Below, piece by piece: positions 4,886 through 29,900 of a DNA stretch of 36,242 nt; positions within the stretch are counted from its first letter, which is position 1; each line of letters opens with the position of its first letter. The notes under the pieces were generated by a model that had not been told where the DNA came from, did not search any database, and saw nothing but the letters and a program-made list of their open reading frames with translations. The translations under genes and the position numbers were made by a program. Origin of the DNA: Nostoc linckia FACHB-104. GTDB taxonomy: Bacteria; Cyanobacteriota; Cyanobacteriia; Cyanobacteriales; Nostocaceae. The DNA lies in the NCBI RefSeq assembly GCF_014696615.1, contig NZ_JACJQJ010000082.1:1-36242 (forward strand), written 5' to 3'.

Positions 4886-5107
4886 TTTGCATAAACTCAA
4901 TATAGGCGATCGCCTTCAAGCTGTCGTCTATAGCAAGTTAAAATTTTTACACTATAAATTGATAGAGCAACAATGCCATCGTGGAGTAGAAGGCTGGTTC
5001 TAACTCAAGTTAGAATCCCAATTCTATCGAAAGTACATCTTATAAATTAACAATGCCACGTTTAACGGCAACAATTACAGCTTGGGTGCGATCGCTCACA
5101 TCTAACT
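4886..5107. repeat. Direct repeat, copy 2 (includes the live response-regulator 3' end)
   Basis: This is the parental-looking copy of the 3609-3854 repeat. The part at 5040-5107 codes for the C-terminus of the intact response regulator, and 4886-5039 is its 3' flank. The two copies point the same way and enclose the SnoaL-like gene. Recombination between them could delete that gene. Confidence 0.9.
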
Positions 5108-5663
5108 TATTCAAAATTCGATTGACATGAGATTTAACAGTGCCTTCACCAATACTCAAAGCAGCTGCAATATCGGCATTGCTCATTCCCTGCGCCAGTG
5201 AGCGGAGTACTTCTAGTTCTCGTTCACTCAGTTCTGGATTGCTGAGGCGCTGTACCAACTTTGCTCCTACATCAGGCGGAATATACTTCTGACCCCGATG
5301 AACGGTACGAATGGCATTCAGAAGCTCGTCAGGTTCAGTTTCTTTCAACAGATATCCTTTTGCGCCTGCCTGCAATCCCCGATAAATATCTTCGTCACTA
5401 TCATACGTGGTCAGTACAATAATCCGAGCAGATTTAGCAGTAGCACAAATTGCACCGATAGCAGCAACTCCTTCCACGCCCGGCATTCGGAGATCCATGA
5501 GCGTGACATCCGGTTGATGTTCCCCAAATAGAGCGATCGCTTGTTCCCCATTTTCGGCTTGGGCAATCACCTGCATATCTGGGTCACGGTTAATAATCGT
5601 GGCTAAACCTTGCCGAAAGATAGCATGATCGTCTGCAATGAGAACCCGAATGGCTTGGCTCAT
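5040..5663 (-). CDS. NarL/FixJ-family response regulator
   Basis: The 207-residue protein has a receiver domain (residues 5-120) and a LuxR-type helix-turn-helix (about 140-207). The acidic pocket Asp11-Asp12, the phospho-acceptor Asp57 in LMDLRMPG, the switch LTTYDSD and the lysine in GYLLKE are all present. The DNA-binding part contains ELSERELEVLRSLAQG and IGEGTVKSHVNRILNKL. ATG 5663 was chosen; an in-frame TTG at 5693 would overlap the kinase gene, whereas GGGAG over the kinase stop serves the ATG. The kinase gene ends 7 nt upstream, so the two are co-translated partners. Phosphorylation by that kinase should control promoter binding; targets are not evident. Confidence 0.95.
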   Translation of the reverse strand: MSQAIRVLIADDHAIFRQGLATIINRDPDMQVIAQAENGEQAIALFGEHQPDVTLMDLRMPGVEGVAAIGAICATAKSARIIVLTTYDSDEDIYRGLQAGAKGYLLKETEPDELLNAIRTVHRGQKYIPPDVGAKLVQRLSNPELSERELEVLRSLAQGMSNADIAAALSIGEGTVKSHVNRILNKLDVSDRTQAVIVAVKRGIVNL

Positions 5664-5670
5664 TGTGATG

Positions 5671-10489: not shown

Positions 10490-12814
10490 TTAACCTTTTG
10501 TCCTTAACCGCACCGTGTTGCTTGTGATGATGTAAGTGATCGCAACAGCAATTACTGAAGGAACCAAGGGCACACAAACGCCGATACTGAACAAAGACAA
10601 GCACAGGCTACCAAGAATGATTATGACTGAGGCGATCGCAATTCGCCGATAAACCAGCCCATGAAATACCCAGACGCATAAACCCCCCATAAGTGCCCAA
10701 CTCCCAATCCAAACTACATCTAATGTTTGGGGCCAAAACCGCAGTAAGGGGCGTTCTTGTTTGGCTATACTCAGCATTTGGCTCACCATTTGGGCGTGAA
10801 TCACTACACCAGGCATTTTCTTGTCAATTTCGTTACTAAAGGGAGTAGCAAAGCGATCGCCTACTGATTGAGCGACAACGCCAATCAACACAATCCTGTT
10901 TTTCACCCACTGGGGTTTAAAATCATTTTGGAGAACTTCTGTGAGCGTGACTTCCCTAGCGACTTTTGAGAAAGAACGATAACTGAGCAAGACTTGATGA
11001 CCGCGAGGGTCGATGTTGTGATAAAAGCCTGTATGCTTTTCTAAAGGTTGAAAAACGGTAGAGCCAAGCTGTAAATTCCCATCTGATGTTGCTTCTGGTT
11101 GAATACCTTCAGCATCGAGGTAACGTAAGGCTAATTCCGCACTGAAAGCATAAGCAGCTTGGCAAACTGAATCGCCTGGATTTAAATGCAACAAATAACG
11201 GCGCACTGTCCCATCGGGTTCAACTGCGATATCGCTAAAGCCGACATTCTCAGGGGGACTTGCTGGGGGTGAAGCAACTCCAAATTTGTTGGCTTTCGCT
11301 TCTGGGTGGCTGACTTCGCAGATTGTTACCAAGTTTGGGTTGTTTTTGATATGTGCAGCTAGCTGGCGATATCCTGGTTCTACAGGAAAATCGCGGTAGA
11401 TATCCAAGCCAATGGCTCTAGGTTGATGCGCCTGAAGTTTTTCGAGAGTTTGCAAAATGACGCGATCGCTTAGGGGATATTGTCGTTGCTGTTGAATATC
11501 TTGCTCTGTAACTTTTACAATCAGTAGACGCTCATCAATGCCGCGATCGCTTTGTAAGCGGGTCATCTGGTCAAAAGCCCACAATTCCACAGGCTGAAGT
11601 CCACCTAAAAAACGTACTGCCATGACTAAGCCAGTAGCTACCAAGCTTTTCACCAAGATATTTGGCAAATGCTGCCACTTCAGCCCAAAGCGATGTCGGT
11701 GCTTTTTCGGGCGTAAATCCTGCCAAGTCGGTGGCACTTCAGCCGGATTTTGATATATCATTGGTAACCAAGTAGCCCCAGGTAACTCCGTAAATTCCTC
11801 TAGGCGTTCTTGGGCATGGCGCACGGCGGTATATAAAGGTTGTCCGCCAGCATATTCTCGCAGAAATTCCTTGAGAAAGGATTGAGCGACGACATCGGGG
11901 ACAATCTCCTGCATGACAATAATAATCGGGACGTGTAAATCAGCTAACTGCTGGGCTAATCCCAATCCTTCACAGGAATTAAAAATGGCGATTTTTAAGC
12001 CTTTTTGCACTGCTTCTCGTAAAGCGTGTTTAAATTGGTCAGTTTCAATACTTTCCCTAGCGCTGAGACTAATTCGCCCCCTTTGTTCTATCGTTTGACT
12101 ATGCCCAGCAAAAAAGAAGATATCCCAGCCTTGAGTATCTCGTAGCTGGGCGATTAAATCTCGCGCTTGGGGTTGATGGTAGAAAACCGATTCTGTTTCC
12201 TGGAGATTTTCAATTGCTTGACGATCCGCAGCTAAATCTAGGTTTTGACTATCGCCAAAAATTGCCAACAACCGCACGCGATCACTTTGAGTTTGATGTT
12301 TGGCAATTTCCCAAGATTCATATTCTACCGGACTGTAGCTCACGCCGACATTGGGATAACTCGACAGCAAATCCCAGCTATGCCAAGGTAGTTTCCAGAG
12401 GATGGGATCTCTAGCTTTGATGGCTAACCGCAGCGTATCAGCTTGAGTAGCGAGTTCTTTGCTTAACCTTTCGCGGATTTTTTGCCATCCCAGTTCCCCG
12501 GAAGGTTGCAGCCATTCGTTAAGGTTAGCTTCCACCTGTCGCATTCTTTGCCAGCAGTCGTCTGTAATCTCCCTAGTAGCGCGATTTGTTGGTAGACTTT
12601 CTTCAATTTCCCACCCATCATTGCGAGCGATAGCGCTGAGACTACGAAAGGACTGTTGCCATAAAAAATACAAGCCTTCAATATCTGTATTAGCACCAAG
12701 TTTACCTTCAATTTCTCCCACAGGTGAACCGCCATCCTCTCTCAGTTCTAGGGATACTTCAAACCCTTGGTGAAAGTTTCCTCTGCCAATTTTTAGAACT
12801 GCTACCCTGGGCAT
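10490..12814 (-). CDS. CHAT-CHASE2 transmembrane sensor protease
   Basis: The 774-residue protein joins two domains. The N-terminal half ends in a CHAT (caspase HetF-associated) domain with the catalytic pair His238 (FFFAGHSQ) and Cys281 (IFNSCEGLG). A membrane helix near residue 388 leads into a CHASE2 sensor domain (DQMTRLQSDRGIDERLLIV, then RAIGLDIYRDFP) at about 405-690. Three membrane helices close the chain (about 690-762). CHASE2 is normally extracytoplasmic, so an outside signal may control a cytoplasmic caspase-like protease; this topology is known for the family but not tested here. The catalytic dyad is intact. The gene is third in the sigma-like/DUF1822/CHAT/DUF928 series. The substrate is unknown. 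Confidence 0.93.
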   Translation of the reverse strand: MPRVAVLKIGRGNFHQGFEVSLELREDGGSPVGEIEGKLGANTDIEGLYFLWQQSFRSLSAIARNDGWEIEESLPTNRATREITDDCWQRMRQVEANLNEWLQPSGELGWQKIRERLSKELATQADTLRLAIKARDPILWKLPWHSWDLLSSYPNVGVSYSPVEYESWEIAKHQTQSDRVRLLAIFGDSQNLDLAADRQAIENLQETESVFYHQPQARDLIAQLRDTQGWDIFFFAGHSQTIEQRGRISLSARESIETDQFKHALREAVQKGLKIAIFNSCEGLGLAQQLADLHVPIIIVMQEIVPDVVAQSFLKEFLREYAGGQPLYTAVRHAQERLEEFTELPGATWLPMIYQNPAEVPPTWQDLRPKKHRHRFGLKWQHLPNILVKSLVATGLVMAVRFLGGLQPVELWAFDQMTRLQSDRGIDERLLIVKVTEQDIQQQRQYPLSDRVILQTLEKLQAHQPRAIGLDIYRDFPVEPGYRQLAAHIKNNPNLVTICEVSHPEAKANKFGVASPPASPPENVGFSDIAVEPDGTVRRYLLHLNPGDSVCQAAYAFSAELALRYLDAEGIQPEATSDGNLQLGSTVFQPLEKHTGFYHNIDPRGHQVLLSYRSFSKVAREVTLTEVLQNDFKPQWVKNRIVLIGVVAQSVGDRFATPFSNEIDKKMPGVVIHAQMVSQMLSIAKQERPLLRFWPQTLDVVWIGSWALMGGLCVWVFHGLVYRRIAIASVIIILGSLCLSLFSIGVCVPLVPSVIAVAITYIITSNTVRLRTKG

Positions 12815-13114
12815 GGTTACTTACCGATTAATTGTTTCTCGCGCAAAGAAAAATATAAGTCAATAAAGTTCAGAGAAGATCACTTGTGGAAACAGCTAGC
12901 AGAATTGGGGGATTCTCCCCCAAACCCCCGATTGGGTGACGGTTGCGTCCCCCAAACCCCCTCCAAAATGATTGTTTTGTTGTCAATTTATTTTTTTAAC
13001 TGAACTGTATTGGAATATAAGTCGGTAAAGGGACAAAGGGGAAAGAGAAAGAAACGCCTTTTCCCTTTAACCTTTTCCCCATTACCCTTTCCCCATCAAT
13101 TTTTCGGCGGTTCG
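12815..13114. repeat. Intergenic spacer with pyrimidine/purine-rich low-complexity repeats
   Basis: This 300-base gap within the operon holds no gene. It has C-rich runs (CCCCCAAACCCCCGATT and CCCCCAAACCCCCTCC, 12919-12965) and an alternating purine and pyrimidine block at 13026-13098. Such repeats recur between genes of filamentous cyanobacteria. The spacing is large enough for a separate promoter for the CHAT-CHASE2 gene. Confidence 0.7.
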
Positions 13115-14554
13115 TTACCCCACAAACTCCTCACTCACCCTAACCTCATTTAACGTTACTTGCACCTGAAATTGGGTTCCTGGTGGCGGACTAAAGCCTA
13201 ACTGAAGAACTTTATCTTTTCCTTCACCTTGCTCATCGCTTCTTGTTTGGGCTTGCAAGCGAGTTTCCCCGCCAGAAATTACACTTAAAATGAGATTTGG
13301 TGGTAGCTTGTGTTGCTGGCTAATGGGTTGCACTTGTAGCCGCACGCCGATTTTATCCTCAGTTTTCGGTCGGATGGTGACAATTAGCGCGACTTTGCAA
13401 TCTCCTAGCTGCATTCCCAAATCAATTAGTCTGGCTCTACTAATACCAGCTTGGGGATGATGGGGAGCGATTTTACCTAAACTTAAAGCGGCTTCCCAAC
13501 GGGTTTCCTCATCGTTGGCGGTGTGTAACAATTCTATCAACGCTGCGATCGCTTCCGGATGACCAATGCCGATTTGTCCTAACACCCCGGCGGCTTGACA
13601 GCGTTCTTTTTCCGGGCGATTGGATTTGATCAGGCGAATTACGGGTGCGATCGCTTCCGCAGAAACGCTCATTTCTGCACTCCGCACTGCCCCTAATTCT
13701 GGTGGTGTTAAAAGCGCATCAACTGCTTGCCAGATTTCCGTAATTATGCTGTCTGCTTGCTGTAACCACTGCCGCAAGTTAACTGCTACATTTGCTGTTG
13801 GGGTTGTAGCTAACTGTAGGCGTTGCTGATATAGTTTTTGCCGCCACTGCTCGTCTACAATTAACGCTGCCCAATGTTCAAAAGGCACCGCCAGTCTGGG
13901 CGAATATACGGAAGGATTACTCAACTGGGTGCATAAATCCTCAGCTACTTGTGTTGATAACTGCGACGGTGCGGCTTGGGGGATAACATTCGACTGGGGA
14001 AGGAGTAGCATTTGGGTGATATCTTCCGCCAAAGCTTCCTGATGAATATAGTAAGTGCGATCGCTCTCATCATATATCCCCTGACTCTTGAGTTTTTGAT
14101 AGCTGACATATCCCCACAATCGCAGCCAAGATTGTTCAGGATTGCCTAAATTAATTTGCACAGCGAGGTAATAATCTTTGCGCCAGCTAGGAATATCAAC
14201 CCACTCGCAAGGAACAGCAAATTCTGCTAAATCGCTGGTGTCGCTAGGAATTAAAACTAAGCGAATTTCCCCTAAATCAATGGGAGTACCATTAACAAAT
14301 TCCCAGAGAGAATCCCACTTGGTAGCAGAGAAAATGCTGTTTTGATTGTTAGCTTGGGGATTATCTTCTGCTAACCAAGCCTCCAGCCAGGGAATAAAAG
14401 TTTTTAAGCACAAATAATTGAGATATGCTTGACAGCAAGCAGCAGCATTAGCGTGAGATTGGGATTGCTGCCAAGCTGCTTGTTGAAGCTCTTGTGATAA
14501 GGTCAACCAGAGCTGGTTAGGATAAATAGTGGCAAGTTTTCGCAAATTCAGCAT
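13115..14554 (-). CDS. DUF1822 family protein with HEAT-like repeats
   Basis: The 479-residue soluble protein starts with a DUF1822-type region (residues 1-250): helices around ELQQAAWQQSQ, a CCQAYLNYLCLKTFIPWLEAW stretch, and strands FAVPCEWVDIPSWRKDYYLA and WLRLWGYVSYQKLK. Residues 290-370 contain two HEAT-like repeats (AAGVLGQIGIGHPEAIAAL, then AALSLGKIAPHHPQ). A beta-rich C-terminal domain follows (VALIVTIRPKTEDKIG). DUF1822 is a cyanobacterial family of unknown function, often next to sigma-like and CHAT genes. It begins 9 nt after the sigma-like gene, so the two are co-translated. HEAT repeats usually bind proteins, so it may bridge the sigma-like protein and the CHAT protease; that is inference. 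Confidence 0.85.
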   Translation of the reverse strand: MLNLRKLATIYPNQLWLTLSQELQQAAWQQSQSHANAAACCQAYLNYLCLKTFIPWLEAWLAEDNPQANNQNSIFSATKWDSLWEFVNGTPIDLGEIRLVLIPSDTSDLAEFAVPCEWVDIPSWRKDYYLAVQINLGNPEQSWLRLWGYVSYQKLKSQGIYDESDRTYYIHQEALAEDITQMLLLPQSNVIPQAAPSQLSTQVAEDLCTQLSNPSVYSPRLAVPFEHWAALIVDEQWRQKLYQQRLQLATTPTANVAVNLRQWLQQADSIITEIWQAVDALLTPPELGAVRSAEMSVSAEAIAPVIRLIKSNRPEKERCQAAGVLGQIGIGHPEAIAALIELLHTANDEETRWEAALSLGKIAPHHPQAGISRARLIDLGMQLGDCKVALIVTIRPKTEDKIGVRLQVQPISQQHKLPPNLILSVISGGETRLQAQTRSDEQGEGKDKVLQLGFSPPPGTQFQVQVTLNEVRVSEEFVG

Positions 14555-14563
14555 ATTCTCTCC

Positions 14564-16345
14564 TTAATTCCTCTGGATTTCTTGGTAGAGCAAGTTTGTT
14601 GACAGCCAATCCTCAATAATTTCCCCGATGTGTTGAGTTTCTTTCTCTAGGGAAAGTCCAAAGCTGGTATCAATCCACTGAAGAAACAAACGCTGTAATT
14701 GCTGCTTGGCTGCGGCGAGCAGTTGGTCGGCATGAGAGTGAGATGTGATAATTTCAATATTATTTATGTCTTGTTTTTGAGCATATCTGAGTAACAAAAT
14801 CTCTTGCTGCGGCGGTGCTAATTGCTCAAAAGACTTTAATAATCCTGATTGAATCAGATTTTGGTAATAGTTTTTTAACCAGGATTTGATATAGTTACTT
14901 TGCCATTGCTTGAGTAAGTTTAAAAAGCTTTTTTCTAATTGATTGTGAGCTAAAGTCAACTTTGCTTGAACTTCTGCTTGGCTAATTGCTTTATCTTGGC
15001 TGAGAGTTTGAGTTAATTCACTAATATTGAGTTTTTGACCGTAACTAAGTTTAAGAATATGTTGTAATTCTGCATCTAAATCGGCAATTGCTGCCATTAA
15101 TTGCCCTTCTATAGGATTAACGCGTTGCAGACGAGCAAATTTTTCCGTTAAAAAGGTTTTAATATAAGCTGGAGGATGAAATTGTTCGCTGGTTAACTGC
15201 TGAAATTTTTCGATTAATGGCGTTTCCACATATTTGGAAATGTAGCGGGAGACAGTTCCCTGATGCACGCTCATCTTACTCGCAAACTGTTCTTGAGTTA
15301 ACAGCGCCAAGCGATGGGGATAGCACAAAGCCATCACAGCTTGGCGGTAAGATTTGGGAATTTGGCTGCGAGTTTTATCGAGGTTTTGCTCAATAATTTC
15401 CAGTTCCCTTGTTAAAGCCAAATCTACTGCTGGTAAAGACTCAGTTTGTTCTGATTCCGGCTCTACAGCTTCCCCATCAGCCACCTGTTCGTTACTATGA
15501 GCATCGTAAGGCACTTCAATAATTTGAGCAGATTGCTGTAAAGCATCAATACACAGATTCATCCATTTTTGCATCATTGCAGGTGTTACATCTGCACCCA
15601 CAGCTACTTGCAGAGGCGCACCTGGCTGGAACCGTTGCGAGTTGTAATCCTTAGCTGTGGCGACAAAATCAGCAAATTCTGGTTCCGGCCATTTTCCCCC
15701 TTCTCTTCGTTGGGGATTGTAGACGCGGTTATGTTTGTAAATCGGAATAAAATATCGCCAAGCAAAAAGATACTGAGAAATTTCCGGTTCCCTTGCACCA
15801 GTGTTATTGAGTGCGGCTCTAAGCCGTTCTTCCGCCTTTTGCAATTTTCTGTGACTATTGATATCGACATCACAAAGCAAATGCCATCTCGATTCCCAGT
15901 TTACATAGTCGCGAGTCACATTTCGCAGCACCCCTACCATGTAAGTTTTTAGACTCGCTCCACCATAGCCACTACTTTGATACTTACTGAGATATTGCCG
16001 TAATTTCTCCCGATTACACAGGTGTTCGTTCGTCAGTGCATATAAATTTTCCCCATAAGCAGCATAAAACGGGAGACGACACCAACTGCGCCAAATTAGA
16101 TAACAGCGATCGCGATCGAAGTAAGCTAATAAGTGCCAGTGAGCTAGCTTTTTTTCTGTTTCCGGTTGGGAATCATCATTAAGAATTTTGACAAAATAAT
16201 CTGCGTAGTCGTTCTCATCCCATTGGGGATGCAACTTAACTAGCTTTGCCATTCTCTCCCGTAAGCGATTTTCAATTAACCGTTTAAAGGGAGGATAACC
16301 GCTAGTTGCAGCGAAGTCATACAAAGTCCAGAATTGCTCACTCAT
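14564..16345 (-). CDS. Sigma-70-like helix-turn-helix regulator
   Basis: The protein has 593 residues and is all-helical and soluble. Residues 1-250 contain WDENDYADYFVKIL and a long region with SLKTYMVGVLRNVTRDYVNW that resembles sigma region 2. Around residue 350 a helix-turn-helix reads LTQEQFASKMSVHQGTVSRY, as in sigma region 4 or related regulators. A second helical half follows with repeated LSYGQKLNISELTQTL and LLLRYAQKQDINNIE segments that look like further region-4-type modules. It is much longer than ECF sigma factors. AGGAG lies seven bases before ATG 16345. It is first in the operon with DUF1822 and CHAT-CHASE2, and is transcribed away from the lanthipeptide genes. Sigma activity is a family-based guess. 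Confidence 0.68.
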   Translation of the reverse strand: MSEQFWTLYDFAATSGYPPFKRLIENRLRERMAKLVKLHPQWDENDYADYFVKILNDDSQPETEKKLAHWHLLAYFDRDRCYLIWRSWCRLPFYAAYGENLYALTNEHLCNREKLRQYLSKYQSSGYGGASLKTYMVGVLRNVTRDYVNWESRWHLLCDVDINSHRKLQKAEERLRAALNNTGAREPEISQYLFAWRYFIPIYKHNRVYNPQRREGGKWPEPEFADFVATAKDYNSQRFQPGAPLQVAVGADVTPAMMQKWMNLCIDALQQSAQIIEVPYDAHSNEQVADGEAVEPESEQTESLPAVDLALTRELEIIEQNLDKTRSQIPKSYRQAVMALCYPHRLALLTQEQFASKMSVHQGTVSRYISKYVETPLIEKFQQLTSEQFHPPAYIKTFLTEKFARLQRVNPIEGQLMAAIADLDAELQHILKLSYGQKLNISELTQTLSQDKAISQAEVQAKLTLAHNQLEKSFLNLLKQWQSNYIKSWLKNYYQNLIQSGLLKSFEQLAPPQQEILLLRYAQKQDINNIEIITSHSHADQLLAAAKQQLQRLFLQWIDTSFGLSLEKETQHIGEIIEDWLSTNLLYQEIQRN

Positions 16346-16882: not shown

Positions 16883-17104
16883 ATGTCTAACAATGACATT
16901 ATTCGCGCTTGGAAAGATGAAGAATATCGCAATAGCCTAACTGAAGAACAACGTTCTCAATTACCTGAAAATCCAGCAGGACTGATTGAACTACCTAATG
17001 AAGTGACAGAAACCGTAGCTGGTGGCGGCATCACCAAAGGAGTGTTATGTGTTGGTCGCAAGGGATTTTCCTATGGAATTGTTTGTGACATTATTAGAGG
17101 CTAA
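16883..17104 (+). CDS. Class II lanthipeptide precursor 1 (mersacidin/lichenicidin type)
   Basis: The precursor has 73 residues. The leader contains NNDIIRAWKDEEYRNSLTEE and LPENPAG, the hallmark of the mersacidin/lichenicidin family, and ends in VAGG at residues 45-48. Cleavage after Gly48 would release a 25-residue core with Thr51, Cys56, Ser63 and Cys68. Two thioether rings are possible (for example Thr51-Cys56 and Ser63-Cys68). The start ATG 16883 has AAGGAG eight bases upstream; a TTG extension to 16760 would add a long hydrophobic tail unlike the family and bury that site. The LanM, LanT and HlyD genes follow. The leader should recruit LanM, and the C39 domain of LanT should cut after the Gly-Gly. 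The core is glycine-rich and cationic at Arg59-Lys60 and Arg72. Confidence 0.92.
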   Translation: MSNNDIIRAWKDEEYRNSLTEEQRSQLPENPAGLIELPNEVTETVAGGGITKGVLCVGRKGFSYGIVCDIIRG

Positions 17105-17121
17105 TAGCACCATATTGATAT

Positions 17122-17149
17122 TAGAAAAACTGTTTATACATTTTTTCTA
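17122..17149 (+). terminator. Hairpin after the first precursor
   Basis: An 8-bp stem (TAGAAAAA/TTTTTCTA) with a 12-base loop begins 17 nt after the stop codon. It is AT-rich with no following T-tract, so it is a weak terminator at best; it may attenuate read-through or stabilise the precursor mRNA. The motif TTTTTCTAGTGTA at 17142-17154 recurs after the second precursor at 17540-17552. Confidence 0.4.
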
Positions 17150-17250
17150 GTGTATTAGTACAGAGCCAAACAAGATGGATTAGCCTATTTATTTCTCGGG
17201 AAATTTTACTGAGAATATAACAAGCAAATCCATATTAACAGCTTCAAGAT

Positions 17251-17276
17251 AGCAAAATCTCAGTTCATATTTTGCT
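17251..17276 (+). promoter_or_regulatory. Perfect hairpin upstream of the second precursor
   Basis: AGCAAAAT (17251-17258) and ATTTTGCT (17269-17276) can form an 8-bp stem with a 10-base loop, ending 29 bases before the start codon of precursor 2. An alternative pairing, ATTTT (17269-17273) with AAAAT (17278-17282), would exclude it. The arrangement could tune translation or mark an mRNA processing site between the two precursors. Function is not shown. Confidence 0.4.
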
Positions 17277-17305
17277 CAAAATCACCACATTAAAAGGAGA
17301 AAATC

Positions 17306-17539
17306 ATGTCTAACTTTGATATTATTCGTGCATGGAAAGACGAAGACTATCGCAATAGCTTAACTGAAGAACAACGTTCTCAATTACCTGAAAATCCTGC
17401 TGGTCAAATTCAACTTTCAGATGAGGAAATGGAAGCTGTAGCTGGCGGATATGTCGGTAAATTTAGGCTTCCTCCTGAGTTTTTTGCCGCACCGTCTACC
17501 TACTTTCTAACGGGTTGCGACGTTTTTCCCAACGGTTAA
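17306..17539 (+). CDS. Class II lanthipeptide precursor 2 (mersacidin/lichenicidin-type leader)
   Basis: The precursor has 77 residues. Its leader differs little from that of precursor 1 (NFDIIRAWKDEDYRNSLTEE, LPENPAG, VAGG at 45-48). The predicted 29-residue core is unrelated: it is rich in aromatics and proline, and has Ser64, Thr65 and Thr69 but only one cysteine, Cys71. At most one lanthionine ring can form; any other Ser/Thr would remain unmodified or become dehydro residues. AAAGGAGA lies just upstream of ATG 17306. LanM starts 33 nt after its stop codon. The two precursors could be halves of a two-peptide lantibiotic or independent products of one enzyme; the sequence cannot decide. 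Confidence 0.9.
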   Translation: MSNFDIIRAWKDEDYRNSLTEEQRSQLPENPAGQIQLSDEEMEAVAGGYVGKFRLPPEFFAAPSTYFLTGCDVFPNG

Positions 17540-17572
17540 TTTTTCTAGTGTAATCACACATTTCTAATCAAG

Positions 17573-20500
17573 ATGGGTGAGCCTTTTTGGTTCACCCTTA
17601 AACACCTACATCCTGACTTCATACATCAGCATACTGGAATGAACAAACAATGGTTTCAAGCTCTGACATTAGCTGAACGTATTACCTTACTAAATATATT
17701 TAATTCTCAAACATCCCAACAGCAAATCAATCCCGAAATAGCACAACAAAGAATGCAGCGCTGGCGGAAACAAAACTCATTTATGAGTGATGCTGATTGG
17801 GCGCAGCGTCTAAAATTAGATGGTATCACTGAAGAAGAATTTCTCAACATTTTGGGTACGCCAATGGAGGCGATAGACGATCGCGTAGCGTGTCCAGAGG
17901 ACTCTCGCTTTTCTCACCCAACATGGTTGTCACAAATAGAACAAGCATTTACTGAATTTGCTAACTCTGATTCTCAGACAGTTCTGCCTCAAGAAATTCT
18001 CAAAGAAAGCACCACTGGTTTTTTATATGCCATTGAACCACTTATAAAACAAGGCTTTAAGCAACTAAATCAAGAATTGCAGCAACTAATTCAGCACCAA
18101 TCAGAGTTACCGTTTGATGCTGATACTGTGATGGAGATATTACTATCAAATTTAACTAAAAAATTATTGCAGATATTACACAAAACAATGATTTTAGAAA
18201 TCAATGTGGCGCGACTGCAAGGATTATTAAATGGGGATACGCCAGACGAAAGATTTCAAAACTTCATTGCCAATTTAAGACAGCCTTCTCAAGCTTTGGC
18301 TTTGTTTCAAGAATATCCAGTTCTCGCACGCCAAATCAAAATTTGTATTGATCATTGGATGCAATTCAGTTTAGAGTTTCTGCGCCATCTTTGCGCTGAT
18401 TGGAGTGATATCTGCAAGCTGTTTAGTCCCGAAAATCAGCCAGGAGTACTGATAGAGTTACAAGGTAGTGCAGGGGATAGTCATCGGGGTGGCCGTTCTG
18501 TTCTGATTGCTAAATTTAGTTCTGGACTGCAGATTGTTTATAAACCGAGAACCCTAGCTGTTGATGTGCATTTCCAAGAATTACTTACTTGGCTCAACGA
18601 TCGCGGTACTCATCCACCATTTAAAACTCTCAAGATTCTACAACGTGATGATTATGGTTGGGTAGAATTTGTTAGTGCGGCTGGATGCAACACAAAAGCC
18701 GAAATTGAGCGTTTTTATGAACGTCAGGGTGGCTACTTAGCTTTACTCTACGCCTTACAAGCAACTGATTTTCACAGTGAGAACTTAATCGCCGCAGGTG
18801 AGCATCCTATTTTAATTGACTTAGAAGCTTTGTTTCATCCTCACTTTGAGCGAGTGGAACTTGTCAAATCAGATTTACTGGCTTACAAAAAAATAGCTTT
18901 CTCAGTTTTGAGCATTGGATTATTACCACAGCGAGTTTATGGCAATGCTGAATATGAAGGCGTTGATTTAAGTGGTTTGGGATCTGCACAAGGTCAACTC
19001 ACTCCCTATAAAGCACTCTATTTAGAAAACCAGGGAACCGATGAAATGTCTCTGAAGCGCAAGCGGATAGAGATGCCGGGAAACCAAAATCGACCAACTT
19101 ATAATGGGCAGGCAATCAATGTTTTGGAATATACAGATTCACTAATTATTGGGTTTACCAACATTTATCGGTTGCTGCTGAAACACCGAGACGAGTTACT
19201 GGCTGAAAATGGCCCTTTAGCTGGCTTTGCTGAGAATAAAGTGCGGGCTATTATGCGCCCCACATATATCTACAGCTTAATATTATTTGAAAGTTTTCAT
19301 CCCGATGTTTTGCGTAATGCCTTAGACCGCGATCGCCATTTTGATCGTCTCTGGCTAGGAATTGAACAAGAACCCCATTTGGCTCAAGTAATTACTGCTG
19401 AACGTCAGGATTTATGGCAAGGTGATGTTCCCCTCTTCACAACTCGTCCTAATTCACAGGATTTGTGGACTAGTTCTGGAGAGCGAATTGCCGATTTTTT
19501 TGCTGAATCAAGTATGGCTTCAGTTCAACGTCGTTTTCAGCAACTTGATGAAGCTGATTTAACACAACAACTGTGGTTTATTCGGGCTTCTCTGACTACA
19601 TTGGTAACGGCAAAAGAGCAAAGACAATCGCCTAGTTACTCTGTCACGGAAGTGCATCATTCTGCCAGTCGGGAGGAACTACTAGTAGCAGCACAGGCAA
19701 TAGGCGATCGCCTAGAAGCGTTAGCATTATCTAGCGAACAGGATGCCACTTGGATTGGTTTACAACTCACTCCCCAAGAAACATGGTTGCTGACTCCACT
19801 AAATATGGATCTGTATAACGGATTATCAGGAGTAGCATTATTTTTGGCTTATCTAAGTACTGCCACTGAGAAGGAAAGCTATAGCAATTTAGCTAAATCT
19901 GCATTAAATACTATTCTCCGCCAAGTAGATACCAACCGATCTCATGTCACATCCATTGGTTTTTTTGAGGGTTGGGGAGGAATTATCTATACTCTATCTC
20001 ATCTCAGTACGCTGTGGAATCAACCAACGCTGCTGAAAGAGGCACAAGAGATTGTTAAACATCTACCTGAGCTAATTGAAAAAGACGAACAACTAGATAT
20101 TATTAGCGGTGCAGCAGGGTGTATTGGTGGTTTAATTGCTCTGTATCGCTGTGCGCCATGCGATCGCACATTAGCTGCCGCCATCCAATGTGGCGATCGT
20201 CTCATTGCCTGCGCGCAAACGATACAGCATGGTATTGCTTGGAGTACGAAGCTATTAGATACAGCACCGTTAGCAGGGTTTTCTCATGGTGCGGCTGGGA
20301 TAGCTTGGGCGTTACTAGAGTTGGCATCTTTGACGGGTGAGCAGCGTTTTTACACAACTGCTTTAGCCGCCATTGAGTATGAGCGTAGCCTGTTTGTACC
20401 AGAAGTCGGCAACTGGTTGGATTTACGCAATTTTACGGCTCAAGTCATGAAAAAAGATGACAGCAAGCATAGCTGTATGACGGCATGGTGTCATGGTGCG

Positions 20501-20935
20501 CCAGGAATTGGGCTGGCTCGCTTGCGCTCTCTTCCACACCTGAGCGATCGCCAAATCCGTTCGGAAATTGACACAGCCCTGAACACCACAATAGCTCATG
20601 GCTTTGGCAGCAATCACTCCCTCTGTCACGGAGATTTAGGCAATCTAGAATTACTATTACAAGCCAGTCTCACCCTTAACGATCCACAATGGCAAACTCA
20701 AGTTGATCGCTTTGCTGCCATGATTCTTGCAAGTATAAACAAACACGGATGGCTCTGTGGTGTGCCTTTGGGAGTTGAAACCCCTGGATTAATGACTGGA
20801 CTTGCTGGCATTGGTTATGGATTGCTGCGACTAGCTAACCCAGAACTTGTTCCCTCAGTATTAGTGCTGGAGCCTCCTCAGCTTAACAGCCCAGTGCAGA
20901 CACAAATCGAATATGCGATCGCACCTCATAACTGA
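17573..20935 (+). CDS. lanM: Class II lanthipeptide synthetase LanM
   Basis: The 1120-residue bifunctional enzyme matches LanM length. The N-terminal dehydratase (DUF4135, to about 680) has the lysine-bearing strand FSSGLQIVYKPRTLAVDVHF and the catalytic-loop motif DFHSEN (His401, Asn404), followed by DLE at 416-418; it phosphorylates and eliminates Ser/Thr of the core. The cyclase domain starts near 743 (NMDLYNGLSGVALFLAYLS) and has GxxG repeats FSHGAAG and WCHGAPG. The zinc ligands Cys973, Cys1018 and His1019 (LCHGDLG) are present, the canonical Cys-Cys-His set, not the three-cysteine set of ProcM-type enzymes. The start at 17573 has a poor ribosome site; ATG 17639 is an alternative. The stop is 2 nt before lanT. 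Confidence 0.96.
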   Translation: MGEPFWFTLKHLHPDFIHQHTGMNKQWFQALTLAERITLLNIFNSQTSQQQINPEIAQQRMQRWRKQNSFMSDADWAQRLKLDGITEEEFLNILGTPMEAIDDRVACPEDSRFSHPTWLSQIEQAFTEFANSDSQTVLPQEILKESTTGFLYAIEPLIKQGFKQLNQELQQLIQHQSELPFDADTVMEILLSNLTKKLLQILHKTMILEINVARLQGLLNGDTPDERFQNFIANLRQPSQALALFQEYPVLARQIKICIDHWMQFSLEFLRHLCADWSDICKLFSPENQPGVLIELQGSAGDSHRGGRSVLIAKFSSGLQIVYKPRTLAVDVHFQELLTWLNDRGTHPPFKTLKILQRDDYGWVEFVSAAGCNTKAEIERFYERQGGYLALLYALQATDFHSENLIAAGEHPILIDLEALFHPHFERVELVKSDLLAYKKIAFSVLSIGLLPQRVYGNAEYEGVDLSGLGSAQGQLTPYKALYLENQGTDEMSLKRKRIEMPGNQNRPTYNGQAINVLEYTDSLIIGFTNIYRLLLKHRDELLAENGPLAGFAENKVRAIMRPTYIYSLILFESFHPDVLRNALDRDRHFDRLWLGIEQEPHLAQVITAERQDLWQGDVPLFTTRPNSQDLWTSSGERIADFFAESSMASVQRRFQQLDEADLTQQLWFIRASLTTLVTAKEQRQSPSYSVTEVHHSASREELLVAAQAIGDRLEALALSSEQDATWIGLQLTPQETWLLTPLNMDLYNGLSGVALFLAYLSTATEKESYSNLAKSALNTILRQVDTNRSHVTSIGFFEGWGGIIYTLSHLSTLWNQPTLLKEAQEIVKHLPELIEKDEQLDIISGAAGCIGGLIALYRCAPCDRTLAAAIQCGDRLIACAQTIQHGIAWSTKLLDTAPLAGFSHGAAGIAWALLELASLTGEQRFYTTALAAIEYERSLFVPEVGNWLDLRNFTAQVMKKDDSKHSCMTAWCHGAPGIGLARLRSLPHLSDRQIRSEIDTALNTTIAHGFGSNHSLCHGDLGNLELLLQASLTLNDPQWQTQVDRFAAMILASINKHGWLCGVPLGVETPGLMTGLAGIGYGLLRLANPELVPSVLVLEPPQLNSPVQTQIEYAIAPHN

Positions 20936-20937
20936 CA

Positions 20938-23133
20938 ATGAAATACCAGCTTGTGAAACAACATAGTGAAGAAGACTGTGGTGCTGCAAGTCTTGCTTCT
21001 ATTGCCAAATATTACGGTAAAACTTTCACCATTAGCCGCATTAGAGAAACTGTAGGAACTGGGCAACAAGGAACCACATTACTAGGACTGAAACGAGGCG
21101 CTGAAGCCCTTGGTTTCAATGCCAGGGCAGTGAAAGTACCTCTAGAAGCTTTCAACGAAAAAATTATACCCCTACCAGCGATTATCCATTGGAAAGGCTA
21201 TCATTGGGTGGTTTTATACGGCAAGCGGGGCAATAAATATGTTGTTGCTGATCCTGGTGTCGGTATCCGCTATCTAGAAAAAAAGTGGCTCTTAGAAGCG
21301 TGGACAGATGGAGTCATGCTGCTCCTAGAACCAGATGCAGTCCGCTTTTCTGCTCAGGAAGATGAAAAAGAAAAAATTGGTGGTTTTGGACGCTTCTTTA
21401 AGCGTTTGTGGCCATATCGCGCTATTCTTGCTCAAACTTTATTACTCAACTCGGTTCTCGGTCTACTGTCTCTCGCTTCGCCCTTTTTGCTGCAAATCCT
21501 CACCGATGATGTGCTGGTTCGTGGAGATACCCAACTCCTGACAAGCGTTGCTATTGGGGTGATTGCTATGCGTTTAGTTAGCAGCAGCTTGCGATTAGCA
21601 CAATCAAATCTCGTGGCTCACTTTGCCCAACGTCTGCAACTCGGATTAATTTTTGAATTTGGTCGGCAAATTCTCCAGTTACCTTTAAGTTATTACGAAT
21701 CTCGTCGCAGTGGTGAAATTGTTAGTCGTTTAGAAGATATTCAACAAATTAATCAGTTAATTTCTCAAGCTGTTGTTAGTCTACCTAGCCAACTATTTAT
21801 CGCTCTAGTTTCTCTAGGTTTCATGCTGTTTTACAGTATCAAACTCACAGTTTTAGCTGGTGCGATCGCTCTTTTAATGACTCTCTCTACAGTAGCTTTT
21901 TTGCCCACTCTCCAGCAAAAAATTCGCAGTGTTTTGGTATTATCAGCCGAAAACCAAGGGGTTCTGGTGGAAACTTTCAAAGGTGCAATTACCCTCAAAA
22001 CTACAGCCGCAGCACCCCAATTCTGGGAAGAATTTCAAAGTCGATTTAGTCGCCTTGCTAACTTTACCTTCCGCACTATTCAAATTAGTATTATCAACGG
22101 TATCTTTTCAAATTTAGTTTCTAGTATCGGTAGCATTGCCTTACTGTGGTTTGGCAGTACTCTGGTGATTAGTCAGGAATTAACTATTGGGATGCTATTA
22201 GCATTTAATAGCATGAATGCTAACTTTACCGCTTTTATTGAAACTACTATCGACTTTATTGATGAATTCACCCGTGCTAAAACTGCTACCCAACGTCTCA
22301 CAGAAGTTATTGAAGCTACCCCAGAAACTTTAGATGATTACCAAAAGCCTTGGGTAAAAATTAAGAGTAATGCAGACATCACCTGTACCAACCTGAACTT
22401 CCATCATGCAGGTAGAGTTGACTTACTAGAAGATTTCTCTTTGACTATTCCTGGTGGTAAAGTTATTGCCCTGATTGGTAAATCTGGCTGCGGTAAAAGT
22501 ACCCTGGCAAAATTGATTGCAGGTTTATATCAGCTTCAGTCTGGAAATATTCGCTTTGGAATTTATAACCTGGAAGACCTTTCTTTAGAATGTCTGCGCC
22601 AACAAGTGGTACTAGTTCCCCAAGAAGCGCACTTTTGGAGTCGTTCGATCATGGAAAACTTTCGTTTAGGTTCCCCTGACATTACCTTAGAGCAAATTAT
22701 CCAAGCTTGCCAGATTGCTGGGGCTGACGAGTTTATCAGCAAACTCCCCGATAAATATCAAACAGTCTTAGGAGAATTTGGGGCTAATCTTTCAGGTGGT
22801 CAAAAGCAGAGATTAGCGATCGCTCGCGCCATTGTCAATAATCCCCCAGTCTTGATTTTAGATGAATCCACTGGTGCGCTCGACCCCGTAAGTGAAGCTG
22901 AAGTCTTAAACCAGTTGCTAATTCATCGCCAGCATCAAACCACAATCTTAATTAGTCACCGTCCCAAAGTCATCCAACAAGCCGATTGGATCGTCATGTT
23001 AGAGCAAGGAAAACTCAAAATCCAAGGTTCTCCAGAAACCCTCAGCCATCAACCAGGCGACCATCTAAACTTTCTCGACGGCATTAATTTACCAACTAAA
23101 CCAGCCCCAATCAAATTTGCACACCACCATTGA
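20938..23133 (+). CDS. lanT: Peptidase-containing ABC transporter (LanT)
   Basis: The 731-residue protein has three domains. The N-terminal C39 peptidase carries Gln8, Cys14 (HSEEDCGAAS), His89 (GYHWVVLYG) and Asp105 (VADPG), so its active site is complete. It should cut precursors after the Gly-Gly motif. A six-helix membrane domain spans about residues 155-440. The ATPase domain has Walker A GKSGCGKST (514-522), signature LSGGQ (618-622), Walker B with Asp642-Glu643, and H-loop His674. It exports the mature peptide through the inner membrane, with the HlyD protein as partner. The start is 2 nt after the LanM stop, so they are translationally coupled. Confidence 0.96.
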   Translation: MKYQLVKQHSEEDCGAASLASIAKYYGKTFTISRIRETVGTGQQGTTLLGLKRGAEALGFNARAVKVPLEAFNEKIIPLPAIIHWKGYHWVVLYGKRGNKYVVADPGVGIRYLEKKWLLEAWTDGVMLLLEPDAVRFSAQEDEKEKIGGFGRFFKRLWPYRAILAQTLLLNSVLGLLSLASPFLLQILTDDVLVRGDTQLLTSVAIGVIAMRLVSSSLRLAQSNLVAHFAQRLQLGLIFEFGRQILQLPLSYYESRRSGEIVSRLEDIQQINQLISQAVVSLPSQLFIALVSLGFMLFYSIKLTVLAGAIALLMTLSTVAFLPTLQQKIRSVLVLSAENQGVLVETFKGAITLKTTAAAPQFWEEFQSRFSRLANFTFRTIQISIINGIFSNLVSSIGSIALLWFGSTLVISQELTIGMLLAFNSMNANFTAFIETTIDFIDEFTRAKTATQRLTEVIEATPETLDDYQKPWVKIKSNADITCTNLNFHHAGRVDLLEDFSLTIPGGKVIALIGKSGCGKSTLAKLIAGLYQLQSGNIRFGIYNLEDLSLECLRQQVVLVPQEAHFWSRSIMENFRLGSPDITLEQIIQACQIAGADEFISKLPDKYQTVLGEFGANLSGGQKQRLAIARAIVNNPPVLILDESTGALDPVSEAEVLNQLLIHRQHQTTILISHRPKVIQQADWIVMLEQGKLKIQGSPETLSHQPGDHLNFLDGINLPTKPAPIKFAHHH

Positions 23134-23158
23134 TAACAATGGGGGTTTGGTATTTGCG

Positions 23159-23212
23159 GTTTGGTGCTTTTCCCCTTTTCCCTTTTCCCCTTGTCCCCCT
23201 TTCCCCCAGTCC
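23159..23212. repeat. Pyrimidine-rich low-complexity tract
   Basis: A run of T and C blocks (TTTTCCCC, CCCTTTTCCCC, CCCCCTTTCCCCC) lies between the lanT stop codon and the HlyD start. Related tracts occur at 12919-13098 and 26918-26946. It is in frame with HlyD but would encode a Pro/Phe-rich stretch not seen in the family, so I treat it as an intergenic repeat. Confidence 0.65.
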
Positions 23213-23219
23213 CCACAAT

Positions 23220-24701
23220 ATGGTTAGCTACTTAAACCCCAACTCTCTACCCCCAGTTGAAAGCAGTGAATTTCTCCCACCGATTGGTAATTGGGCGAGA
23301 CTAGGTAGTTTAGTACTCGTCGGTGGTGTGGGGGGAGCGATCGCACTTGCTTCTGTGATTGAATATAAAGTTACCGTTAAAGGTCAAGCCAGCATCCGCC
23401 CTGCTGGAGAATTACGACTTGTACAAGCAGCCACCGAAGGACAAATTACCAACGTTTTTGTCAAAGAAAATCAGGTGGTAAAAAAAGGAGATGTCTTAGC
23501 TACTATCGATGACTCCCGCCTGCAAACGAAAAAAAGTCAACTGCAAAGCAATATCCAACAGACGCAACTGCAACTACTACAAATTGACGCTCAAATTAAG
23601 GCTTTAAATCGCCAAATCACAGCGGAAACCGAGCGCAAAAACCGGGCGGTGACTTCGGCTCAAGCGGAACTTAATCGTGTGCAACGCAATTATCAAGAAA
23701 AGCAAATTACTGTCAAGGCGGAAGTTGCAGAAGTTGAGGCGAACTTAAACAGAGCGCAACAAGAATGGCAGCAAGCACAAATCGAATTGCGTTCATCTCG
23801 TGCTAATCTACAATCAACAGAAGCAGCGTTAAAAGCAGCTCAAACAAAACGCGATCGCTATCAAAAGGTAGTTCAAGCTGGAGCGTTATCTCTCAATCAA
23901 TTAGAGGAAGTGCAGTTAGAAGTTGCTCAACAACAACAAGCAGTTGAGATGCGACAAGCCAGTATTGAAGCCCAACAGCAAATTATTGCCCAACAAAAAC
24001 AAGCAGTAGCCGCAGTGCGAGCCAAACTGCAACGAGTCCAAGCAGCTCTTAACCCCAGTAATGCAGAAATTGCGATCGCTCAACAGACTATCGCCCAAGA
24101 AAGTGCAGGCGGTGAAGCTACTCTCGCCACCCTCAACCGAGAATGGGAAGCACTGTTTCAGCAGCGAATTCAAATAAAAAATCAGCTTCAGCGCGACACC
24201 AGAGAACTGCAACAAGTCGAAAGCGAACTCAGCCAAACTCAGATCACAGTCACCGAAGATGGAATAATCTCTGGGCTAAATTTACGCAACCCAGGCCAAT
24301 CGGTACGTATAGGCGAAGAAATTGCTCAAATTGTCCCTAGCAATGCTCCCTTAGTGATTAAAGCTGCCGTTTCACCTGAAGATGTAAGTCAGTTAGCAAA
24401 AGGGCAAGAGGTACAGATGCAGGTTTCTGCCTGTCCCTATCCTGATTACGGCACTCTTAAAGGTGTAGTTAGTCACATTTCTGAAGATACCATTAAATCT
24501 CAAAAGGTTGAGGCTGTCTCCCCAGTCGCCAATACTTCTTTTTACGAGGTGACAATACTTCCCGATACTTTAACCTTGGGTAGCAGCAACCATCAGTGTA
24601 CTATTATACCAGGAATGCAAGGCAGGGCTGATATTATCTCTCGACGAGAGACAGTCCTGAAATTTATGCTGAGGAGAGCCAGGTTAATTACAAACTTGTG
24701 A
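23220..24701 (+). CDS. HlyD-family periplasmic adaptor protein
   Basis: The 493-residue protein has a short cytoplasmic N-terminus and one membrane helix (about residues 22-45, ARLGSLVLVGGVGGAIALA). It is followed by a biotinyl-lipoyl half-motif (GQITNVFVKENQVVKKGDVLA), a long coiled coil rich in Gln, Glu and Ala (about 100-330), then the returning lipoyl half (TVTEDGIISGLNLRNPGQSV) and a beta-barrel domain. These proteins link an inner-membrane ABC exporter to an outer-membrane channel; the partner here is LanT. The start ATG 23220 lies past a pyrimidine tract; an in-frame ATG at 23139 would add a low-complexity N-terminus. No TolC-like gene is in the window, so the channel must be encoded elsewhere. 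Confidence 0.93.
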   Translation: MVSYLNPNSLPPVESSEFLPPIGNWARLGSLVLVGGVGGAIALASVIEYKVTVKGQASIRPAGELRLVQAATEGQITNVFVKENQVVKKGDVLATIDDSRLQTKKSQLQSNIQQTQLQLLQIDAQIKALNRQITAETERKNRAVTSAQAELNRVQRNYQEKQITVKAEVAEVEANLNRAQQEWQQAQIELRSSRANLQSTEAALKAAQTKRDRYQKVVQAGALSLNQLEEVQLEVAQQQQAVEMRQASIEAQQQIIAQQKQAVAAVRAKLQRVQAALNPSNAEIAIAQQTIAQESAGGEATLATLNREWEALFQQRIQIKNQLQRDTRELQQVESELSQTQITVTEDGIISGLNLRNPGQSVRIGEEIAQIVPSNAPLVIKAAVSPEDVSQLAKGQEVQMQVSACPYPDYGTLKGVVSHISEDTIKSQKVEAVSPVANTSFYEVTILPDTLTLGSSNHQCTIIPGMQGRADIISRRETVLKFMLRRARLITNL

Positions 24702-26973: not shown

Positions 26974-29900
26974 TTACAAGCCATTGCCAATGAGAATAAA
27001 CGGAGCCCAGTAAAAAGGGTGACTGAGGTGATGCCTTACTTGTGGTGATAAATTATCGTTGATGCCTCTTTGCTGACCGATGGTTGCATAGTTCCCAGTA
27101 ATTAGGGCGATTTGCGCTTGACGCAGAGCTTCGGCTTTTGTGGTTTTCCCTTGTGTTATTTTAGTATAAAAAGCATTCATTAAAGCTTGGGTACCACCGT
27201 CATCTACCGCCCATAAAGAAGCGATCGCAGCTCTTGCACCGGTTTGTTGCATCTGGTAGCCAAAACCGAGAATTTCCCTACCGTCACCTAACTGCTCTCC
27301 TAATCCAGTTTCACAAGCTGAAAGTACTACTAAATCGACATTCGGTAAGCGCCAATTTTGCATATCTCGTAGTGTAGCGCGATCGCCATTACCAAATAAA
27401 ATAAATGATTCTTCTGGTTGTCCATTGGTAAATGCAGCGTGAGTAGCCAGATGTACGACAGAGTAATCATTCATCTGCAATACAATATCTTGATTGAATT
27501 GCTGATCTAAGAGTTTTTTTGTCTGAGGAACAGTTTGCGCTAGATTTTCTACTTCTACACCTGCAAAGGGTAAGCCGGCGAATTTAAACCGCCGAGTTCC
27601 TACCTCAAAGCTATAGTTTCCTTGGGTAAAGGCGGCTGCTAAGACATTTAACTGATTCTGCGGTTTGGTGTTGAGGTCAGTTAAGCTCACAGCAGTGATA
27701 TTATTAATGCTGAAACGCTCGACTAACCATTGTTGACCATCATACAAGGCGGCTAGGGGAATATAACGCAGCTGTCCGTCTGGAGCGTAAATGATGGTTT
27801 TAGTTTTAGCTTGAGCTAAATCATTTTCTAGGGGTTTGATTAGCCAATCATAAAGCTGTTGAGCCGGAACTTTCACCCCAGGAGTACGTTTTGGTAACGC
27901 CGAACGAAATTCAGCGATCGCACGGTTGAGTTCTGCTTGTTTAACAGCAACGGTGCGGCGCAGTGGCGGTGCATAGGGAGTGACTAAAATCAGTTCTAAG
28001 CGATCGCTCAACACCAAAGGATAGATAATTACAGCATCTTGCTGAAGTTTTTTCAAGTTATCCTGTAAGGCGCTGGCGGAGGACTCTAAATTAAAACTCT
28101 GTCCTTGGGTGGTTTGCTGAAGTTGCCCGATCCATTCTCGCACTTTGGGGCTTTCGAGGAAAGCATTAAATTGTTTGGCAATCTCCTGCTGAGTTTTTCT
28201 CAAGGCGATGATCCGCTGGGTTTGGGCTGGTGTGCGCTTAGTAACTGGAAGGCTTTCGAGTTGAGCGAGTTCTTTACCTAGTGCGATCGCTTTATCAGTT
28301 TCCGTCGTCATCCCTTCGCGAATTTGTTGTTCTTGGGGACGTTCAGCAATACCAGTCGCAGTCTTATCGCTCCCCCGAACATTGCGGAGATAGTCTTCAA
28401 TTTCCTGGACTTTGAGTAAATCTAGCACCCGTTGCGCTTCCAAAACTCGGTTTTGTTGCAGCAAGATATCGGCTAGGTGGCGATAATCTTGAGCAATGGT
28501 TTGGGTGTAAGACTGCTGTTGTTGTTTGGGAAGTTCCCTGATATTTTTGCGAATCGCTTCTCTAACATTCACAGATTGTTTCAGGAAAATAATTGCTAAT
28601 TCTGGTTTATTCTGTTTTTCTAGTAAGTAACCGATAGTAGTTAAAGTATGTCCTTCACCTTCTTTATTACCAATTTCTTGAGCAATCACTAAACTTTGCT
28701 GCAAGAAATTTTGAGCTAATTCATATTGCCCTTGCTCAAAGTAAACCTTGCCGATAGCGTGGAGAGTTATGCCTTCGGAACGCCTGGAACCAAGTTGTTG
28801 GTAAATAGCTAAGGCTGACTGCAAAAAATCTAACGCTAATTGATATTTTTCTTGCTTGAAGTAAACAATCCCAATACTATAAAATGTCGTTCCTTCTAAT
28901 AATTTTTGTTCTTTTTTATCATTAACCTTTTTAATAACTTTTAAGGCTTGGCGATGTAAATCCAATGCTAATTCATACTTTCCTTGCCTAGAGTGAATAT
29001 TCCCTATAGCATTTAACGCTCTAGCTTCCCCCGCAATATCCCCAATCATCCCAACATCGATCTCTAATTCTGCAGGTCTTCTGGCAATTTTTAAGGCTTC
29101 TTGATAGGATTTTAAAGCTAGTTCGTATTGCCCTAGTACTTCATAAATTCGCGCCATATTGAACTCAACTCCTACCCAATCTCCTAAAACTTCGTAGCGA
29201 ATTGGTAAGGCTTGTTGATAGTAATCTAAAGCTAATTTATATTCTCCCAAACTGCTGTAAATTATAGCCATTTGGTTGAGAGTTTTCCATACTGTTTCTT
29301 GATGACTAAGCTTTTTGGCAATCTCTAAGACTTGGCGAAAATTCTCTAAAGCTTCGTTATATTGACCTCGCCGGGAAAGTTGACTACCTTGCTGATAGTA
29401 AATTCTCTCCATCAATTTGAGGCTAGATTGTTCTCCATATTTATCGCCTAGTTCCTGGTAAATTGATAAAGCTTGCTGGTAGTATTTTAATGCTTGTTGT
29501 TCATCTTGTTGAGCATCATAAATTTGCCCTATTTCATAGAAAGTCTTCGCAATACCTGCTTTATCTTCTAGCTGTTGATAAATCGATAAAGCTGTCTCTA
29601 ATGTTTTAATAGCTCTAGCATACTTCTCGTCTCTAGATTGCTCTATACCTTCTTTAAATATTTGATCGGCTTTGAGTTTTTCTCTTGTTTGACCAAAGAA
29701 AATCACCCCTCCTTCCGCTTTAAAAGTAGTAATTTGACCAGAATCAAAACGAATTTTTACACTTTCATAATTAACAAAACCACTGAGGGGAGGTTTACTC
29801 AGGAGAGTTGCTTTGTTATCAGTCAGTTTCTCAATTTCTTGTTGAATCGCCAACCCTTGCTGATAGGACTCTAAAGCTGCTTGATTTTGTCCTAACTTTT

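Follow-up and report, generated by a model that had tools for sequence, protein, structure and literature searches.

The stretch of Nostoc linckia FACHB-104 DNA analyzed here (the window; 36,242 nucleotides, positions 1 to 36,242 of contig NZ_JACJQJ010000082.1) probably carries a working class II lanthipeptide locus with two separate products, part of a modular family of loci that exchange the precursor core and the synthetase LanM as a block. The host genome (G000) comprises 9.39 Mb in 181 contigs. The genes for two precursors, A1 and A2, are followed by those for LanM, the C39-peptidase transporter LanT and an HlyD-family adaptor, all intact and in a row on the plus strand from 16883 to 24701, which confirms both the coordinates and the gene order given in the initial annotation.

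Precursors A1 (16883–17104, plus strand, 73 aa) and A2 (17306–17539, plus strand, 77 aa) score 67.3 and 74.7 bits with TIGR03898, the NCBIfam model of the mersacidin/lichenicidin family (cut-off 23.5; E 8e-19 and 4e-21, respectively), in keeping with the 48-residue leaders of this type that had been proposed. LanM (17573–20935, plus strand), a class II lanthipeptide synthetase with DUF4135 and LANC_like domains, reaches 1091.9 bits with TIGR03897 (cut-off 304; E = 0). For the precursors and LanM, these E-values exclude chance. In LanT (20938–23133, plus strand), Peptidase_C39 (E 5e-36), ABC_membrane and ABC_tran all lie above their Pfam cut-offs, and the protein matches PCAT (4ry2) over residues 2–701, with P-glycoproteins scoring higher via the ABC part. 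The adaptor (23220–24701, plus strand) contains HlyD_3 and Biotin_lipoyl_2 over their cut-offs. With their best NCBIfam models, both proteins stay short of the cut-off (LanT 444.3 with TIGR03796, cut-off 853.3; HlyD 170.5 with TIGR01843, cut-off 208.65) and are thus of those kinds, outside the named subfamilies. The HlyD reading frame is open from a TTG at 23130, but since the relative in genome G592 starts at the equivalent of the ATG at 23220, the latter is probably the start. Between A2 and LanM, a hairpin with a 9-bp stem around UUUUU (17575–17597, plus strand) overlaps the annotated LanM ATG at 17573; because this hairpin, present 5′ of LanM in Nostoc parmelioides as well, covers that codon, LanM may instead start at the ATG at 17639. 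The 101-base stretch with the hairpin has a z value of −3.8 here and the matching N. parmelioides stretch one of −3.6, both referring to the whole stretch; the hairpin is a probable attenuator or mRNA processing element. Downstream of the cluster, a 280-residue gene at 24835 had no NCBIfam or Pfam match and the two 143-residue genes past it no Pfam match, and a 1916-residue TPR-CHAT protein is encoded on the opposite strand (26974–32724).

The best solved relative of LanM is LicM2 (6st5, E 3e-147), the LanM of lichenicidin. In an alignment with CylM (5dzt) and LicM2, the dehydratase residues and a Cys/Cys-His zinc site are present, as the initial annotation had read by eye. With residue numbers counted along the printed alignment, D302, H304, K324, D399, H401, D416, E418, R558 and T564 align with CylM D252, H254, K274, D347, H349, D364, E366, R506 and T512, residues that act in catalysis, and C973, C1018 and H1019 align with the Cys/Cys-His triad of CylM. 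LanM thus combines dehydratase and LanC-like domains with the catalytic residues, and in both precursors a leader with a GG site precedes a core that contains Cys as well as Ser/Thr, so that profiles, domains and catalytic residues together support a class II lanthipeptide cluster that is complete and encodes two unlike cores. Filing the locus as prochlorosin-like or NHLP was rejected on profile scores and the zinc-site alignment: the Cys-Cys-Cys zinc site of ProcM-type enzymes is absent from LanM, no Nif11 family was reported for the leader, and the precursors score 18.5 and 26.6 bits with the NHLP precursor model TIGR03793 (cut-off 50.9). With the CTB family bacteriocin model NF038167 (cut-off 32), A2 scores 19.5 bits and A1 was not listed. 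Judged from its sequence, the locus is an ordinary class II lanthipeptide cluster with apparently new products; the A1 and A2 core strings had no match in open-licence PMC papers and, as far as that search reaches, the products appear to be new.

The two leaders had been called almost identical. This describes their first 33 residues, of which 31 agree, but is too strong for the whole leader, where 39 of 48 residues (81%) do. A1 consists of a 48-residue leader ending in GG and a 25-residue core, in which T3/C8 and S15/C20 form two (S/T)-x4-C units. Searching the examined loci by motif, we found A1-type cores in two other genomes, N. parmelioides and G753. Six such cores were picked by eye (A1, three from N. 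parmelioides and two of three from G753, the third G753 reading frame being disturbed and left unscored), and all six contain at least two units; in A1 and N. parmelioides cores 1 and 3 these occupy the same positions, 3–8 and 15–20, with Ser and Thr exchanged. At least two such motifs arose in 224 of 100000 shuffles of A1. From the conservation of both units, two non-overlapping rings are predicted for A1-type cores. The G753 locus (L153) carries its A1-type precursors in tandem at 5357–6419, one with a disturbed leader frame, an array consistent with ongoing repeat turnover.

A2 joins a leader of the same family to a 29-residue core with S16, T17, T21 and a single cysteine, Cys23. The core ends in 15 residues, PSTYFLTGCDVFPNG, that recur unchanged in G588 and G592, of the same genus as the window, and in G086, a member of another family; S16, T17, T21 and C23 are invariant in the four genomes. 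In each of the six pairwise comparisons, the 15 codons of the tail differ by 4 to 9 synonymous and 0 non-synonymous changes, while in the first half of the core G086 departs from the other genomes at 9 codons. With about 28% of random changes taken as synonymous, 9 independent changes would all be so with a chance of about 1e-5. Since only synonymous changes occur in all six pairs, the codon comparison indicates that the A2 tail is held fixed by purifying selection.

That the A2 core is widespread was rejected on genome samples. Among 386 genomes sampled across the phylum (E ≤ 1), 52 gave a match, with only G000 significant (2e-18) and the next at 0.02. Seven of 388 genomes matched in the order sample (E ≤ 0.01): G000, G592 and G086 are real, and the other four (E 0.008–0.009, one genus) are other frames without the tail. 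In the family sample, 4 of 208 genomes matched (E ≤ 0.01), namely G000, G588, G592 and, weakly, G728 (E 9e-4), which the motif check did not recover. Within its own family G086 is the only one of 27 genomes with the core, and the overall count of four (G000, G588, G592 and G086) refers to the sampled genomes, the samples overlapping. The A2 gene of G086 carries a YW leader that resembles the leader of the neighboring precursor, which suggests that the A2 core became attached to a local leader there.

The single cysteine, together with a tail that is invariant across two families whose LanMs are only 56% alike, might suggest that A2 is exported without a lanthionine, having escaped to another role such as signaling, and that A1 is the only lanthipeptide of the cluster. 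We consider this improbable, as in two genomes no precursor other than A2 was found next to the open LanM frame, and the three hydroxyl residues and the cysteine are invariant in all four. We favor A2 as a putative lanthipeptide, in which one cysteine would allow one ring at most.

Two adjoining unlike cores behind one leader family, next to an enzyme whose nearest solved relative is LicM2, also invite comparison with two-component lantibiotics such as haloduracin and lichenicidin, whose halves are active only together. The distribution of the cores in relatives speaks strongly against this. G588 and G592, with LanMs 91 and 92% identical to that of the window and LanTs 97% identical, carry A2 with open LanM and LanT frames, and A2 is the sole TIGR03898 gene found in each genome. 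The N. parmelioides locus has three A1-type precursors and no A2, and G749, which has the same three precursors and is taken to be the same genome, gave no further TIGR03898 match. Each peptide thus occurs without the other. In addition, the cluster has a single LanM, and by inspection neither core contains TxTxEC, the lipid II motif of mersacidin-like binders according to PMC7268733. As the two cores are not kept together in relatives, the two-component reading was rejected, and we regard it as very unlikely. By sequence comparison, the cores are not unique to G000, and A1 and A2 are evolutionarily separable products rather than a pair. In G592, the region upstream of A2 matches the window region upstream of A1 (86% identity over 196 bases that take in the start of the leader), and the precursor gene itself matches A2 at 96%, an arrangement such as a deletion between two leader repeats would leave.

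The clearest case of exchange is provided by two loci, L174 (in G723) and L143 (in G718), from two species of one genus that is different from that of the window. Compared in 200-base steps, their DNA is mostly 94–99% identical over the flanking trio of genes described below, the leader and LanT/HlyD, and drops to 51–70% from a point within the leader, past about codon 33, to at most about 400 bases before the end of lanM, with abrupt ends on both sides. Lower steps outside this block are confined to an intergenic part (71–84%, L143 4483–5018) and three single places (89–92%). The encoded proteins follow the same pattern, with identities of 98.6% for LanT, 99.2% over 374 residues for HlyD and 95.8% for the sigma-like protein, against 59.3% for LanM. 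Sharp breakpoints were mapped in this one pair.

Gene trees point the same way. The LanM data reject the clades {L142, L143, L174} (p-AU 6e-8) and {L149, L176} (1e-6), and the LanT data reject {L176, L142, L143} (7e-6), {L149, L161} (6e-14) and {window, L075, L076, L011, L012} (6e-4), the trees being of the quick kind and the clades named after the trees had been seen. Every rejected clade is supported at 100 in the tree of the other gene, and the clade that includes the window has an SH-aLRT of 100 in the LanM tree. In the LanT tree, the nearest relative of the window outside its genus is L173; compared with that locus, identities are 91% for LanT, 82% for HlyD, 72% for the sigma-like protein and 75% for the DUF1822 protein, but 56% for LanM, and the core is unrelated. 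N. parmelioides, with LanM at 79% and LanT at 89%, shares an A1-type core with the window. The tree conflict suggests that the window locus itself took part in exchange.

The trees and the following pairwise comparison (276 pairs) draw on 24 loci, chosen for having both LanM and LanT in the examined stretch. Cores were available on both sides in 253 of the 276 pairs, with 3 of the 4 L063 precursors entering the comparison since the pattern missed one, and in 46 of these pairs LanT was at least 85% identical. Eight of the 46 share a core (z ≥ 8), all with LanM at 70% or more, as against none of the 35 in which LanM is below 70%. Conversely, 15 pairs with cores on both sides have LanM at 70% or more; 10 share a core and 5 fall below z 8, these being G588 and G592 against N. 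parmelioides, with unlike cores despite LanMs at 80–81%, and three pairs with glycine-rich cores (LanM 72–82%, core z 3.6–5.9). One pair, L068/L148, sits on both thresholds. The A2 core is shared at a LanM identity of 56% between G086 and each of the window, G592 and G588. On these sequence comparisons, core and LanM seem to be exchanged as a unit between a constant leader and a constant exporter, with the A2 core as an exception.

That LanM simply evolves faster than LanT because diversifying selection acts on the cores, with no block exchange, would account for LanM being the less conserved of the two in 23 of 23 comparisons with the window, but we rejected it on the L174/L143 DNA breakpoints and consider it most unlikely, given the abrupt ends of a 51–70% block within DNA that is mostly 94–99% identical on both sides, the strong conflict of the LanM and LanT trees in both directions, and the contrast between N. 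parmelioides (LanM 79%, LanT 89%) and L173 (56% and 91%), each against the window. Block exchange thus remains the preferred reading, and plasmids are a possible vehicle: of five plasmid records found to match the A2 leader, two are from Trichormus and one from Dolichospermum.

Divergent to the cluster lie three genes on the minus strand (10490–16345), encoding a CHAT + CHASE2 protein (10490–12814), a DUF1822 protein (13115–14554) and a sigma-70 region-4-like protein (14564–16345; Sigma70_r4 25.3 bits at a cut-off of 24.1, a weak match). This trio is kept at 72–85% beside LanMs that are 56–58% alike: the sigma-like protein is 72–73% and the DUF1822 protein 75–77% identical in L142, L143, L173 and L174, beside unlike cores and LanMs, and the CHAT + CHASE2 protein has relatives in G720 (76%) and G744 (84%) that align over almost its full length. 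Of 44 loci, which are not independent of each other, 18 have a CHASE2 relative no more than 7 kb from the precursor, 16 of them on the opposite strand. Searches for CHASE2-type genes in 15 genomes, selected in part for a locus already showing one, gave 9–40 matches in each. The sigma-like gene or the trio is a possible regulator.

The host genome contains a second mersacidin-leader locus (L008, on contig C157) with LanM at 4253–7516 (60% identity) and a precursor at 7720–7956, whose glycine-rich core is of a type common to G587, G589 and G591; a CHASE2 relative is found at a distance of about 1.7 kb. Further LanM-like genes of 34 and 36% identity occur at L009 (C155) and L010 (C72), the latter partial. 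Another conserved core type, CTTCTGGTGFTHTCNWSC with near variants, occurs at L013, L025, L027, L030 and L032, in four genera of the order.

With mersacidin/lichenicidin-type clusters, the locus has in common the leader family, the LanM domains, the Cys/Cys-His zinc site, the GG site and a C39 LanT; unlike them, it has a cyanobacterial host and an HlyD adaptor and lacks TxTxEC, and neither an immunity gene nor a LanP was recognized among the window proteins scanned with NCBIfam/Pfam. To our knowledge, the A1 and A2 cores bear no similarity to mersacidin or lichenicidin. Prochlorosins (ProcA/ProcM) are likewise cyanobacterial, with a single synthetase that lies next to, or acts on, two or more cores behind a conserved leader, one conserved leader with variable cores being their theme in PMC10783134. 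The window differs in that its leader is not of the Nif11 type, its LanM is encoded within the cluster and shows a tendency to be exchanged together with the core, and its zinc site is Cys-Cys-His, as against the Cys-Cys-Cys given for prochlorosin-like enzymes in PMC11251773. That paper also reports that lanthipeptides largely match cyclase phylogenies, which agrees with a core that follows its LanM. Nostolysamides (npu, Nostoc punctiforme) are, according to PMC13060382, also class II lanthipeptides of Nostoc with a GG leader, a LanM and a C39 transporter, but they have a 78-residue Nif11 leader, a LanM of the ProcM clade and lipidation by a GNAT, and the 25-residue NpuA core has four cysteines as opposed to two in A1 and one in A2; the scans, which covered part of the window ORFs, named no GNAT. 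Roseocin-type two-component lantibiotics likewise combine unlike cores with a conserved leader in their two precursors (PMC10027976), whereas here relatives carry each core without the other.

Mersacidin-type leaders in cyanobacteria are already known in kind: the Trichormus and Dolichospermum plasmid hits are annotated with the name of the family, and a 2011 paper (PMC3140520) already listed LanM clusters of Nostoc and Anabaena. TIGR03898-type leaders are encoded by 29 of the 291 genomes sampled from the order and by 51 of the 217 sampled from the family, and our LanM scan of named genomes gave two matches only, both in Nostoc. Among the open-licence PMC papers that our searches brought up, including PMC12715929 and PMC3951391, no description was met of the A1 and A2 cores or of an exchange of core and LanM as a block in this cyanobacterial group.

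We propose that the single LanM would bind the leader common to A1 and A2, dehydrate Ser/Thr in both cores and then close thioether rings, and that LanT would cut behind the double glycine and export the presumably bioactive products together with HlyD. A1 would yield a two-ring peptide with rings 3–8 and 15–20 after loss of two waters (predicted [M+H]+ 2575.40), and A2 a one-ring peptide with the conserved tail after loss of one to three waters (predicted 3222.58, 3204.57 or 3186.56). In the course of evolution, the leader and LanT/HlyD would be kept while core and LanM are swapped through homologous recombination bounded by the leader on one side and the 3′ end of lanM on the other. In general terms, and here we put the chances at about even, mersacidin-leader loci of cyanobacteria may serve as plug-in sites, the start of the leader and the stretch from the 3′ end of lanM through lanT acting as arms, core and LanM being swapped under a fixed exporter and fixed flanks, and a few cores such as A2 being portable alone and held by selection.

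The locus offers two candidate new lanthipeptides whose masses, and in the case of A1 also ring positions, are predicted. In addition, the comparison points to LanMs that are natural chimeras and to a core transplanted in nature, both of which bear directly on the engineering question of which segments of synthetase, leader and core need to fit each other before a LanM accepts a new core. If the plug-in reading is true, single recombination events would change the product of such a locus wholesale, and the constancy of A2, portable between LanMs that are 56% identical, would suggest a fixed target or signal over an arms-race antibiotic.
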